A stretch of 45,000 nt of DNA from an uncultured Pelagibacteraceae bacterium. GTDB lineage: Bacteria; Pseudomonadota; Alphaproteobacteria; Pelagibacterales; Pelagibacteraceae. The notes below the pieces were generated by a model, which was given only the letters and a program-made list of their open reading frames with translations, ran no database searches and was not told where the DNA came from. Numbering within the stretch: position 1 is the stretch's first letter; every line of letters starts with the position of its first letter. Both the position numbers and the translations under genes were made by a program. The stretch is from positions 1 to 45,000 of the forward strand of contig CACLTO010000001.1 of the NCBI GenBank assembly GCA_902609915.1, read 5' to 3'. Below, in pieces: positions 7,546 through 12,332 of the stretch.

Positions 7546-8807
7546 TTTAAATTTAAAACTTCACCTGCTAAATATAAAGATCCTGTAATAATCAAAAGAT
7601 CGTTTTCATTTAGTGAAATGGATTTAATAGCAGCCTCAATACTTTCCTTATATTCAACTTTAAAATTATTCTTAAATTTTTTTTTTAATTCTTTCCCACT
7701 AATAGCATTTGGTTGATTGGGTATATCGATTGTAGTTAGAGATGAGATATCTTTAAAATTATTAATATATTTTTCATGGTCTTTATTTGCCATCATTCCT
7801 ATAATGACATGTTTATTACAATCTAAAGTATGCAGGTATTCGTTCAAAACTCTAGAACCATCTTCATTATGACTGCCATCAATTATTAACCTATTATCTT
7901 TTACTAATTCTTTTAATTTTCCAGAATTTATTTCTTGTAGTCTTCCAATTGTTCTAATTTTTTTGATACCATCTTTTATATCTTCATCTTTAAAATCAAA
8001 ATTTAGATGTCGTAGAGTCGCAATTGCAGTTGAAATATTCTCAAGTTGAAATTGTCCAAGAATATTAGGTAATGGTAGTTTTAAACCACCAAACCTGTCC
8101 TCATAATAAAAAAAACCATTTTCCCCATTTGAATAACTAAAATCTTCATTGAAAAATAATTTATTAGATGAATTATTTGCAATAGTTTTCTTTATATATT
8201 CAGTAGTTTTATTAGAATTCTGTTTAGATATAATTATATTAGAATTCAAAAGAGAAGATGTTTTTTCAAATACAATTTTTTCTATTGTTTGTTGATTTTC
8301 TGGTAACCAGTCAAGGTGATCTTTGCTAATTGAACAAACCACACTAGCTAAGTTATTTTTAAATATATTAGTTGCATCAAATCTATGAAATAGACCAGCT
8401 TCTACTAGATTAATGTTTTCAGGATATTGGGCTGCTTTATAAAAAAAACATGCACTCAAAGCCTCAAAAAAAGTTAAAGGATTTTTATTATTTATTTTTT
8501 CTATTTTTTCAAAGAGATCTATTAACTCCTCGTCCTTTAACTTTTCATCATTAAAAATAAACCTTTCATTAATTTTTTGAATATGAGGACTAGTGTAAAC
8601 ATTACATTTTATTTTTGCTTCCTTCAAAATTGAAAATATTGCATTGATTGTAGATTGTTTACCATTTGTACCCACTACAGAAATTACCTTAATTCTATCT
8701 TGTGGATTACCTAATTTTTCACAAAGATTTTTAATTCGATCTAAGCTTAAGTCTATTTCTTTAGGATGCAGCTTTTGAAAGCGGTTGAGAATTTTCTGAA
8801 GTTTCAT
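7542..8807 (-). CDS. folC: bifunctional folylpolyglutamate/dihydrofolate synthase
   Basis: FolC adds glutamate to dihydropteroate and folates using ATP, completing folate synthesis and retaining it in the cell. The 421-residue protein opens with the usual FQKLHPKEIDLSLDRIK segment, which fixes the start. The ATP loop reads GTNGKQST at 46-53, where the family normally has GTNGKGST. The Mur-ligase-like central domain shows FHRFDATN, where GGR-D-TN is usual, and DGSHN later. The start overlaps the accD 3' end by 47 bases. It is the last gene of the reverse-strand run from rpsA. Confidence 0.93.
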   Translation of the reverse strand: MKLQKILNRFQKLHPKEIDLSLDRIKNLCEKLGNPQDRIKVISVVGTNGKQSTINAIFSILKEAKIKCNVYTSPHIQKINERFIFNDEKLKDEELIDLFEKIEKINNKNPLTFFEALSACFFYKAAQYPENINLVEAGLFHRFDATNIFKNNLASVVCSISKDHLDWLPENQQTIEKIVFEKTSSLLNSNIIISKQNSNKTTEYIKKTIANNSSNKLFFNEDFSYSNGENGFFYYEDRFGGLKLPLPNILGQFQLENISTAIATLRHLNFDFKDEDIKDGIKKIRTIGRLQEINSGKLKELVKDNRLIIDGSHNEDGSRVLNEYLHTLDCNKHVIIGMMANKDHEKYINNFKDISSLTTIDIPNQPNAISGKELKKKFKNNFKVEYKESIEAAIKSISLNENDLLIITGSLYLAGEVLNLN

Positions 8808-9693
8808 TTTCCTCAGTGCTTATAGCAGGATTTTTATTTAATAGAATTGAAATTAAAATCCCAAATTTTTCTTGAAGATCTTTTCTATCAAGAATCAAAT
8901 CCACAAATCCAGTTTTTTGGACATATGAGCTTCTTTGAAAATTTTCCGGTAAACTCTCTTTTACTGTGCCCTCAATAACTCTTGCTCCAGCAAAAGCTAT
9001 TAAAGCATGGTCAGACTCTGCGATATTTAAATCTCCTAACATCGCATATGATGCTGTTATTCCTCCAGCTGTTGGATCTGTTAAGCATACCAAGTAAGGA
9101 AGATTATTCCTCTTTAGTTCGTTAATAGCCATAGTAGTCCTTGTCATTTGAGATAAAGAAATCAAACTTTCCATCATTCTCATTCCTCCTCCTGAGCTAA
9201 AACAGATGAAAGGTGTTTTATTTTCTATTGCATGCTGGATACCATACAAAAAAGCCTCACCCTCAGCTGCTGCCATTGAAGCTCCTAGAAATTCAAAATC
9301 TGATGCTATTGCCGTAACTTTAATATTGTTTATTGACCCGGAAACAACCATCATTCCACAATCCATACCAGTTTTTTTTCTAGCACTTTTCAATCTATCT
9401 TTATAAGACTTAGAGTCTGTCCAGTTTAATGGATCATCTTTTGGAATAGGTGTTTTAAAAACTTCATAATTGTTTTTTCCAAAAAAAATATCAAATCTTT
9501 GTTTTGGCGTAATCCTATGATGTTTATTACAATCAGGACATACCCAAAGATTTTCCTCTAAATCTTTTTTTAAAATTGGCCCTTTACAACAAGATGTCCA
9601 ATCACTGTTCGCAAGATCCTCTTTTGTTGCCCTCTTATGAATAGCAGTTTTAATTTTTTCACCAGCTTTAATTATTTTAGTTATCCAATTCAT
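8761..9693 (-). CDS. accD: acetyl-CoA carboxylase carboxyltransferase subunit beta
   Basis: AccD pairs with AccA (encoded at 30.4 kb) to transfer the carboxyl group from biotin to acetyl-CoA, the committed step of fatty acid synthesis. Conserved carboxyltransferase blocks are visible, including SSGGGMRMMESLISLSQM and GGITASYAMLGD. The N-terminal zinc ribbon is odd: C35-C36 are adjacent where the usual first half is CxxC, while C52-x-x-C55 is normal. The last ~15 residues are a low-complexity tail that lies in the 47-base overlap with folC. It overlaps trpA by four bases (ATGA). Confidence 0.95.
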   Translation of the reverse strand: MNWITKIIKAGEKIKTAIHKRATKEDLANSDWTSCCKGPILKKDLEENLWVCPDCNKHHRITPKQRFDIFFGKNNYEVFKTPIPKDDPLNWTDSKSYKDRLKSARKKTGMDCGMMVVSGSINNIKVTAIASDFEFLGASMAAAEGEAFLYGIQHAIENKTPFICFSSGGGMRMMESLISLSQMTRTTMAINELKRNNLPYLVCLTDPTAGGITASYAMLGDLNIAESDHALIAFAGARVIEGTVKESLPENFQRSSYVQKTGFVDLILDRKDLQEKFGILISILLNKNPAISTEENETSENSQPLSKAAS

Positions 9694-10490
9694 ATAATTT
9701 TATTTTTTAATCTTCTTACAACCTTATCAACATTTATGACCGGATTTTGTCTTTTTTTAATTGATTTTGTTATTTCTTTACAAATAGCACTTCCTACAAC
9801 TAAACCATCTGCTTTTCTTAGGGATTTTATAGTTTTTTCAGTAATACCAAAACCAATTACAATGTTTTTTTTTGGACTGATTCTTTTTATTTTGTTGTAA
9901 TTAGACAATATTTTTTTTGAAGAGACTTTTAATTTCCCCCCAGTTGTAGATAGCATTGATATAAAATAGTTCATTGGGTGAGAGTCTTTTATAATTTTTC
10001 TTAGTCTTTCGTTCGTTGTTGTTGGCGACAAAAGTTGAATAAAATAAATTGACTTATTCTTACATTTTTTTGCAAATTTTTTATTCTCCGGCCAAGGTAA
10101 GTCTACAACTATCAATCCGTTTACCCCAGAAATTTTACATTTTTTTAAAAAGTTATTTTCACCATATTGGAAGATCATATTATAGTAACCCATTAATATA
10201 ATTGGTTTTAATTTATTTGTTCTCTTGAAGTCTCTTACGATTTTAAAAATATCATTAATTTTAATTCCTTTTTTTATCGCTCTATATGCACTAGTTTGTA
10301 TTTGGCTACCATCTGCAACTGGAGTATTGTGTGGTACACCTACTTCTAATATATCAGCATTTTTTGAGATTGACTTTAATATATTTAAAGATTGTTTTTT
10401 TGAGCTATCACCAGCGACAGTATAGGTTAATAATGCAGGTCTATTCTCGTGTTTAGCTTTTTTAAACGCAACACTAATTGGATTTAACAT
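9690..10490 (-). CDS. trpA: tryptophan synthase alpha subunit
   Basis: TrpA splits indole-3-glycerol phosphate to indole and glyceraldehyde 3-phosphate and passes indole to TrpB. In this 266-residue protein the catalytic pair sits exactly at the textbook numbers: E49 in ILEVGVP and D60 in PVADGSQIQ. The segment after GVP reads HNTP instead of the more common FSDP. It starts one base after the trpB stop and overlaps accD by four bases, so coupled translation is likely. Confidence 0.95.
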   Translation of the reverse strand: MLNPISVAFKKAKHENRPALLTYTVAGDSSKKQSLNILKSISKNADILEVGVPHNTPVADGSQIQTSAYRAIKKGIKINDIFKIVRDFKRTNKLKPIILMGYYNMIFQYGENNFLKKCKISGVNGLIVVDLPWPENKKFAKKCKNKSIYFIQLLSPTTTNERLRKIIKDSHPMNYFISMLSTTGGKLKVSSKKILSNYNKIKRISPKKNIVIGFGITEKTIKSLRKADGLVVGSAICKEITKSIKKRQNPVINVDKVVRRLKNKII

Positions 10491-10491
10491 A

Positions 10492-11718
10492 TTATTTTCT
10501 CAATCTTTTCTTTAATATTCCTCGGTCTTTATAAGCATCTCCACAACTATTAACAACTACGATCGTGTCCTTACTCAACTTTTTTGACTCAGCTATTGCA
10601 ACTGAAAAAGCATGGCTTGGCTCTAATGAAGGTCTTAATTTTTCTAATCTTGTTACTAACTTATATGCCTCTAAAGCCTCTTCATCACTTGCTGCTGTAT
10701 ATCTTGCTCTTTTTGTATCTTTTAGAAAACAGTGAAGAGGTGACACTCCAGGATAATCAAGACCAGCAGAAATTGATTCGGTTTCCTCTATTTGTCCATC
10801 TTTGTTTTGATTAACGTATTGGGCTGCTCCATGAAGAATTCCTATTTTAGATCCGTAAGTGAGAGGTGCCGCATGTTTTTTACTTTTATTAGGTCCCCCT
10901 GCCTCTATTCCAATAAATTCACATTGTTTTTTATCATAATCCATAAATTCATTCCAAAAACCAAAGCTAGAACTTCCTCCACCAACACAATTATAAAGTT
11001 TAAGTTTTTTAGGAATTGATCCAAACTCGTTAATTAATTGAAATTTTAGTTCTCTTGATATCTGACTGGTACTCCAACCACAGATACGTACAAAGACTGC
11101 TGGACCAACAGTACTACCAACGCACATCGCTGTCGTATCACAATTAGCTACCCAAAATCGCATACATTCAGAAACTGCATCTACTAAAGTTTGACTCCCA
11201 GAATACACAGGGATGACTTCAGCTCCATTTTTTTTAATAGCCTTTACGTTTGGCTGTTGTCTCTTAATATCTTTTGCTCCCATAAAAATTTTACACTTTA
11301 AACCAAATTTTTTTGCTGCCATACTCAACATTTTGCCTGCATACCCTGCGCCAGTGTCTCCACATATAATTTTTTTACCTGAACGTTTTGCAAGTAAACA
11401 ATGAACTGTAGCGTTATAAATTTTATGTGCTCCTCCATTCGCATCAGATACAACCTTAGACCAAATCTGTGCTCCACCCACATGTTTAGTTAAATTTTCT
11501 AATTTTATAAAACGTGTTGGAGCTCCAACCCAATTTTTAAAATATTTGTCTCTTTCATTAATGAATCTTTTATCTTTTTTTAGTTTGTTAAAAAGGATTT
11601 CTAGATCTTCAATTGGCCTCTTTAATGTTTCAGGAACAAAGTTTCCACCAAATTTACCTCCCCAGAATCCAAGTTTATTTCCTTGATCAATTACTGCAAT
11701 TCCTTTTTTTAATTTCAT
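10492..11718 (-). CDS. trpB: tryptophan synthase beta subunit, divergent
   Basis: This PLP enzyme condenses indole with serine. At 408 residues it has normal length. The Schiff-base lysine is K99 in GGAHKIYN, and VGGGSSSFG (245-253) and SISAGLDYPGVSP (315-327) are recognisable. Several key positions differ. The ETGAGQHG motif with catalytic Glu (E109 in Salmonella) reads DTGAGYAG here, so Asp121 replaces Glu. The C-terminal SGRGDKD, whose Ser contacts the PLP ring, reads CGDAYKD (392-398). The VGPHPYP block reads VGPAVFV. Context between trpF and trpA, with four-base and one-base junctions, strongly supports TrpB, but the chemistry may be altered. Confidence 0.88.
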   Translation of the reverse strand: MKLKKGIAVIDQGNKLGFWGGKFGGNFVPETLKRPIEDLEILFNKLKKDKRFINERDKYFKNWVGAPTRFIKLENLTKHVGGAQIWSKVVSDANGGAHKIYNATVHCLLAKRSGKKIICGDTGAGYAGKMLSMAAKKFGLKCKIFMGAKDIKRQQPNVKAIKKNGAEVIPVYSGSQTLVDAVSECMRFWVANCDTTAMCVGSTVGPAVFVRICGWSTSQISRELKFQLINEFGSIPKKLKLYNCVGGGSSSFGFWNEFMDYDKKQCEFIGIEAGGPNKSKKHAAPLTYGSKIGILHGAAQYVNQNKDGQIEETESISAGLDYPGVSPLHCFLKDTKRARYTAASDEEALEAYKLVTRLEKLRPSLEPSHAFSVAIAESKKLSKDTIVVVNSCGDAYKDRGILKKRLRK

Positions 11719-12332
11719 ATATTTTTGAATAAATTTAATAATTTATTTATTTTATCTATATCTTTTATGCCTTTATTATTTTCAATTGATCCAGACAAAT
11801 CAATAATGAAGTCTTTATTTTTAAAATTAGGAATATCATTTATTTGGATATTTCCCGCAATCATTTTATTTAATTTTTTGGGCACTTCATTTAGTAGATT
11901 ATGATCAAAACTTTCAGATTTATGGTAACCTTTTGAGTCAAATAAAATTATATCTGAGATTTCTGAATAGTCCTTAAACTTATTTACATCATCTTTATCT
12001 GAGATAGTAAGAGCTGAAATTATTTTCACTTTATATTTTTTTTTAATTTCCAGGGTTCTTATTGGATTAACGTCATATAATTGATAATAATCAAATTTTA
12101 AATCTGCGATTTTTTTAAGAACTTCATTAGTTGGATTTACAAGAACGGAAACAAAATTGACTTGTTTTTTATCAACATTAATTAAATCTTTTAATTTTTC
12201 GTATGTAACAAACCTTTTACTTTTTTCATAATTTGTGATGAACCCAATATATTTCGGTGGGTAAGCATGATTTAAGATATAACTTAATGTTTGAGAGTCT
12301 GAGATCCCACATATTTTCAAACCTTTAATCAT
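11715..12332 (-). CDS. trpF: phosphoribosylanthranilate isomerase
   Basis: TrpF carries out the Amadori rearrangement of phosphoribosylanthranilate in tryptophan synthesis. The 205-residue protein starts with KICGIS, holding the general-base Cys, and has IILFDSKG around the general-acid Asp. The phosphate-binding C-terminal block reads IIDLSGSIENNKGIKD, where DVSSGVE..G.KD is usual. QLYD replaces QLHG, and the protein is lysine-rich and divergent. It overlaps both pyrF and trpB by four bases (ATGA). Confidence 0.88.
   Translation of the reverse strand: MIKGLKICGISDSQTLSYILNHAYPPKYIGFITNYEKSKRFVTYEKLKDLINVDKKQVNFVSVLVNPTNEVLKKIADLKFDYYQLYDVNPIRTLEIKKKYKVKIISALTISDKDDVNKFKDYSEISDIILFDSKGYHKSESFDHNLLNEVPKKLNKMIAGNIQINDIPNFKNKDFIIDLSGSIENNKGIKDIDKINKLLNLFKNI

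Follow-up and report, generated by a model that had tools for sequence, protein, structure and literature searches.

Within the window, by which we mean the whole 45,000-nt stretch of the uncultured Pelagibacteraceae contig that was analysed, a trpB gene lies between trpF and trpA on the minus strand, and both this position and the reality of its open reading frame were confirmed (Table 1). The gene is the sole match to its own protein in the window's assembly, and no trpC was found in the same assembly, which is 69.75% complete. The neighbouring AccD (window positions 8761-9693) reaches 267.6 bits where its curated cut-off is 317.45, and accD identity differs sharply among SAR11 genomes.

Table 1. 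Genes and diagnostic codons of the trp locus in the window
Feature	Position	Strand	Basis
trpB, Asp-type tryptophan synthase beta subunit, 408 aa	10492..11718	minus	ORF, homology, fold match
trpA, alpha subunit of the pair; E49 and D60 retained, Thr for D56 and His for F54	9690..10490	minus	
trpF, 4-base overlap with trpB	11715..12332	minus	
folC, neighbour at the trp locus, named from its place only			
Lys99 codon (E. coli K87, PLP lysine), kept	11422..11424	minus	alignment
Asp121 codon, replaces catalytic Glu109	11356..11358	minus	alignment
Tyr126-Ala127 codons, replace Gln114-His115 (substrate loop)	11338..11343	minus	alignment
Ala160 codon, replaces Arg148	11239..11241	minus	alignment; Gln114-partner role in the closed state from the accessible text of PMC9512447
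Val179 codon, replaces Lys167 (alpha-beta contact)	11182..11184	minus	alignment, subunit pairs; contact role presumed
AVFV 207-210 codons, replace HPYP	11089..11100	minus	alignment
Cys392 codon, aligned on Ser377; Cys is usual there in the Proteobacteria read	10543..10545	minus	alignment
trpA Thr56 codon, replaces Asp56	10323..10325	minus	alignment, subunit pairs

The window protein is homologous to TrpB1 (TIGR00263), the form of E. coli, Salmonella and Pyrococcus, over its whole length in both sequence and fold, and shares with it the PLP lysine, the Arg141-Asp305 pair, the GGGS motif and the adjacency to trpA. In contrast to TrpB1, it carries Asp for Glu109 and replacements at Gln114/His115, Arg148, HPYP and Lys167, and for most rows the identity over the aligned structural model is 35-42%. 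Its TIGR00263 score of 371 bits lies under the curated NCBIfam cut-off of 392.45, which was passed in 87 of the 297 genomes of the order search and by members of the Asp-type clade described below such as L198 (403.7 bits). The best of its matches to 46 distinct PDB sequences (E ≤ 0.001) was the reconstructed ancestral TrpB 5ey5_B (1.5e-98), and three of the 46 were TrpB2-like (~1e-14). TrpB2 is a distant relative, neither of its models reaching its cut-off with the window protein (82.5 bits against 366 for PRK12391 and 92.4 bits against 518.85 for TIGR01415), and was present as an additional gene in six of the SAR11 genomes read (L133, with 737 bits to PRK12391, and L233-L237, assigned by tree or score). 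An AlphaFold2 model built from 40 near-identical rows alone reached a mean pLDDT of only 42.2; with SAR11 rows, two distant viral-contig TrpBs and one fragment as input the mean was 71.8, with residues 1-29 and 277-327 below 50. The model of the window protein matched the T. thermophilus TrpB structure 1x1q_A with Z 40.2 and an rmsd of 2.7 over 366 residues.

Residues were read from an alignment of 240 distinct TrpB-family sequences including E. coli (273 ORFs gave 239 distinct sequences), which omits 12 other PLP enzymes scoring below 50 bits. The preliminary description had pointed to three unusual blocks, DTGAGYAG (121-128), VGPAVFV (204-210) and CGDAYKD (from 392), and to the retention of Lys99, GGGS and SAGLDYPGV, all of which are indeed kept. 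Asp121 aligns on E. coli Glu109 and Cys392 on Ser377, with no shifted Glu or Ser. Glu occupies position 109 in all 33 non-SAR11 proteobacterial TrpBs read, which were the best-scoring matches to the window and hence biased towards resemblance. The replacement of the catalytic Glu holds, as does that of the VGPHPYP block. The third block did not survive the comparison: Cys stands at the Ser377 position in 30 of the 33 and is therefore usual there, and Cys392 was rejected as a cofactor-site anomaly. A sequencing error was likewise rejected as the source of Asp121, since Asp was found in every one of the 73 distinct sequences given by 80 named SAR11 loci chosen by similarity alone (the best 80 of 501 relatives, each at least 89% identical to the window).

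Replacements beyond position 109 were counted, against 37 canonical TrpBs, in 177 Asp-type TrpBs of more than 330 residues, a set that omits six partial Asp rows and two rows without position 109 and that is defined by its own residue, so that its 177/177 Asp is no test of conservation. Gln114 is replaced by Tyr (164) or Met (13), and His115 by Ala (158), Asn (9), Phe (7), Gln (2) or an ambiguous X (1); Arg148 gives way to Ala (140), Ser (24), Phe (8), Val (3) or Glu (1). Lys167, presumed to lie at the alpha-beta contact, is Val in 176 sequences and Ile in one. Asn171 is Ser in every sequence. Where E. coli has KREDLLHGG the window reads KVVSDANGG, and in the HPYP block His195 is Ala (95), Asn (56), Thr (22) or one of a few others, Pro196 is Ile or Val, Tyr197 is Phe in 176 of the 177, and Pro198 is mostly Val. 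The PLP lysine is kept in 176 (one X), both residues of the closing Arg141-Asp305 salt bridge in all 177, and T110, GAG, E350, GGGS and K382 are also kept. According to the accessible text on Salmonella TrpB, Gln114 bonds Asn145 and Arg148 in the closed state, the pocket for indole is bordered by His115 and Phe306, and N1 of indole is steadied by Glu109 (PMC9512447), which is called essential for indole activation (PMC9512447, PMC12727527); given the Gln114-Arg148 bond, Gln114 and its partner have been lost together in nearly all Asp-type TrpBs. The basal Asp-type TrpB L140 (genome G203) keeps Arg148 and has Met-Ala at 114-115, and may be an intermediate.

In a TrpB tree of 73 rows, thinned to below 88% identity, the 35 Asp rows grouped in a single branch (SH-aLRT 100) free of Glu rows, its stem measuring 1.3 changes per column. 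This branch, together with the Asp in 73 of 73 sequences, bears out a SAR11-specific lineage with Asp conserved; a branch of this kind with Asp and Cys conserved had been named beforehand as support for a lineage-specific enzyme. The Asp type is present in both SAR11 families sampled (f1 and f2). Matches were obtained in 170 of 197 genomes with the window TrpB in the family search and in 288 of 297 with TIGR00263 in the order search, both counts taking in incomplete genes as well as weak hits on other PLP enzymes. No Asp-type member was detected by score in 739 non-SAR11 proteobacterial genomes (380 + 359), where no match exceeded 323 bits. Among full-length Asp-type TrpBs free of ambiguous bases, the most distant, L140, scores 461 bits, and cut or N-bearing copies, such as that of G047, score lower than L140. 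Absence outside SAR11 was judged by score in these genomes and by residue in the 33 non-SAR11 sequences read, so Asp109 may yet occur in an otherwise canonical TrpB. Beyond Proteobacteria the comparison covered 14 control genomes (assigned by family), chains of the PDB, and phage records.

Sixteen SAR11 genomes were without TrpB (G281 with a cut TrpB), several of them, including G156, G174 and G044, lacking both trpB and accD at 86-96% completeness. True loss of trpB in these genomes is doubtful, since 12 of the 16 were also without a match to the window accD, which suggests that an assembly gap at the trp locus is the likely cause; trpC was found in all three TrpB-less genomes tested (G156, G174 and G044). 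One genome (G038, contig 7) carries a second, partial Asp-type trpB (L204) at the contig edge, ~10 kb off the operon copy.

The replacements extend to the partner subunit. The TrpAs partnering Asp-type TrpBs form one clade (SH-aLRT 100) and, among 175 of them, E49 is kept in all, D60 in 174 (one Glu) and T183 in 173 (two gaps), and F54 is replaced by His in 169. Residue 56, Asp in 37 of 37 canonical TrpAs, is Thr in 135, Ala in 28 and Cys in 12. We take alpha-Asp56 and beta-Lys167 to form a salt-bridge pair in Salmonella, for which literature searches returned no text. When the subunits of each locus are matched, all 37 canonical pairs have D/K at alpha-56/beta-167, the canonical TrpB set consisting of the 33 non-SAR11 sequences, three from SAR11 and E. 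coli. Two Glu-type sets have E/K (9/9 pairs) and a third, the L120 type, has T/L (3/3), and all 178 Asp-type pairs set T, A or C against V or I; L230, cut before position 109 and outside the 178, has T/V. The alpha acid and the beta lysine are kept or lost jointly. They are lost in two groups, which lie apart on the TrpB tree, although this separation is not firm (support 84 to 100; long branches). The co-evolution proposed for TrpB with its neighbours was accordingly upheld for TrpA, more strongly than the mild deviation first described, and not for TrpF, whose between-genome identity does not track the type of trpB.

Compared with eight other loci over 340 codons (Nei-Gojobori), the window trpB gave dN of 0.032-0.091 and dS of 1.2-2.0, the latter near saturation, yet dN was far lower; two of the loci (L002 and L031) gave identical values and may be one genome, and L010 is without an anchor. 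By this measure Asp-type trpB is under strong purifying selection. The long stem branch of the clade, and the low scores of other window proteins such as AccD, could be taken to mean relaxed drift, in which SAR11 tolerates a damaged, slow TrpB whose changes brought no new function. Under such drift, however, dN/dS would not be expected so far below 1, nor the replaced sites so conserved within the clade (Ser at 171, Val at 167), nor the alpha and beta subunits to change as a pair, and we consider it very unlikely.

The trp locus was read in 18 stretches from 17 SAR11 genomes, and its TrpBs were of the Asp type, a canonical type (G199, G244), a Glu type with ESGAGQH (G078, G074, G176), another Glu type (G210) and a very distant type (G160). 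Four of the genomes examined (L190-L193: G078, G074, G176 and G160) hold a very different trpB-trpA pair in place at the locus. Between G078, a single contig of 1,343,202 bases, and G017, identity is 83% for a 573-aa ORF, 84% for accD, 89% for thioredoxin, 45% for pyrF and 54% for trpF, but only 39% for trpB and 28% for trpA. Between G074 and G026 it is 79% for aroA, 90% for the 573-aa ORF, 90% for pyrF and 73% for trpF, then 37% for trpB and 31% for trpA, followed by 48% for accD, 31% for folC and 65% for thioredoxin. The low trpB and trpA identity beside similar flanking genes indicates that the two genes vary as a pair, within a block of otherwise variable genes whose borders differ. Glu types were also found in L216-L218, L225 and L226, the neighbouring trpA always being of the matching kind. 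The very distant TrpBs L120, L225 and L226 (G160, G392 and G320) have ETGAS(M)(N/H) for ETGAGQH, score 310-323 bits to TIGR00263 and have a stem length of 2.8 changes per column. A search for the source of the ESGAGQH type in 57 other alphaproteobacterial genomes found no match above 50% identity.

In one IMG/VR contig (L300/L302, IMGVR_UViG_3300006345_001204), T4-like phage genes follow on the 3' end of an Asp-type trpB and a truncated trpA. A 30-mer just past the trpA/phage join occurs in 18 contigs including L302, two of which begin too near the 30-mer to show an upstream gene. Since trpA lies upstream of it in L302 alone, phage carriage of trpBA was rejected and L302 is probably an assembly chimera, a real recombinant being possible. 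Among 50,697 phage records the window TrpB had 20 matches, the best 42% identical, and the Glu-type L111 had 23, all less than 60% identical among the ten matches listed. The window TrpB alone matched nothing in a scan of IMG/VR; a TrpB alignment matched three contigs.

Taken together, these results make it probable that the window gene encodes a working SAR11 tryptophan synthase beta subunit, in a lineage-special form whose catalytic acid is shorter and whose contact between alpha and beta has been rebuilt. This reading draws on the fold and homology, the trpF-trpB-trpA order, the retained PLP lysine, Arg141, Asp305, Glu350 and GGGS, the near-invariant E49 and D60 of the partner TrpAs, dN far below dS and the paired change at alpha-56/beta-167. 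It is further supported by three single-contig SAR11 genomes (G003, G017 and G026) in which no other TrpB or TrpB2 was found; one of them, G026 (1,308,759 bases), combines an Asp-type TrpB with trpC. As to catalytic roles, substrates and the effect on alpha-beta signalling, we infer that Lys99 would carry PLP and form the aminoacrylate from L-serine, and that Asp121 would take over from Glu the stabilisation of charge on the indole nitrogen during C-C bond formation. The substrate loop, which holds the carboxylate and forms part of the wall of the indole pocket, would have been re-made through replacement of Gln114 by Tyr or Met and of His115 mostly by Ala, together with the loss of Arg148, and the contact with TrpA with Thr, Ala or Cys against Val or Ile in place of the Asp-Lys pair.

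Several observations run against a working subunit. The E109D form of Salmonella TrpB is much weaker with serine, the window protein falls short of the TIGR00263 cut-off, and trpC was not found in the incomplete assembly of the window. In the accessible text on the plant TSB-like protein, loss of the same Glu kills activity (PMC12727527), and a pseudoenzyme that only activates TrpA, with the same Glu changed, might be envisaged here too, the more so in the six SAR11 genomes whose TrpB2 would provide a second enzyme. The TSB-like signature as defined there, however, is Ala, Ser or Pro for the Glu and Glu for Asp305 (PMC12727527), whereas the SAR11 proteins have Asp at both positions in 177 of 177 sequences; the TSB-like protein and the engineered TrpB-derived tyrosine synthases, in which the same Glu is changed, lose the carboxylate that the window TrpB retains. 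With G003, G017 and G026 holding no other TrpB, a pseudoenzyme is extremely improbable.

The position of the changes, exactly at the catalytic acid and the carboxylate loop, would also suit an enzyme that makes tryptophan but prefers another beta-site donor (O-acetyl- or O-phosphoserine) or has relaxed its choice of nucleophile, as would the preference of Salmonella E109D for better leaving groups. Bacterial TrpB E105G/A/S is reported, in the accessible text of the sources, to admit phenol as nucleophile (cited in PMC12727527; E105G also in PMC12909874), and P. ubique is there called a glycine auxotroph (PMC10665431), so that its serine supply may be unusual. Nevertheless, the place in the trp operon and the catalytically intact TrpA point to indole delivered by TrpA, Asp retains a carboxylate, and the scores lie far under the TrpB2 models; such a change of donor or nucleophile is unlikely. 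A broader version of the working subunit is possible, though rather doubtful: the subunits would be rewired without the textbook Asp56-Lys167 contact, with a beta site re-made round the shorter acid that might be adapted to serine in scarce or activated form, and the trpB-trpA pair would also pass between SAR11 cells as a unit by in-place replacement, leaving several perhaps incompatible pairings at one locus.

A 2008 paper described SAR11 trpB1, from P. ubique and the Sargasso Sea, as a distinct, early-split tree cluster, gave the trp genes of P. ubique as the split operons trpEGDC and trpFBA, and concluded that its one trpB must be functional (PMC2395257). The cluster shares operon order and host group with the window trpB and is very probably the same clade; in the accessible text it is reported as a tree cluster, with no description of residues, interface or in-place replacement (PMC2395257). 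If the single trpB of P. ubique is of the Asp type, the tryptophan of this organism, which according to the part of a review available to us grows when given nutrients that include methionine, glycine and pyruvate (PMC4285135), would come from an Asp-type enzyme. Full-text searches, mostly outside subscription journals and judged by title and abstract, found no literature on the active site, interface or replacement of SAR11 or Pelagibacter TrpB. Thus SAR11 TrpB was known as a distinct cluster, and we found no earlier description of the residue changes.

SAR11 is a very abundant group of ocean bacteria, and TrpB serves as a model in the study of PLP chemistry, of channelling and of allostery. 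An Asp form that is natural and conserved, and whose changes are coupled between the subunits, would help to show which rules of the active site and the interface are needed. Alpha and beta types taken from the different trpBA pairs that a single genus has at this locus could be mixed to probe partner specificity.
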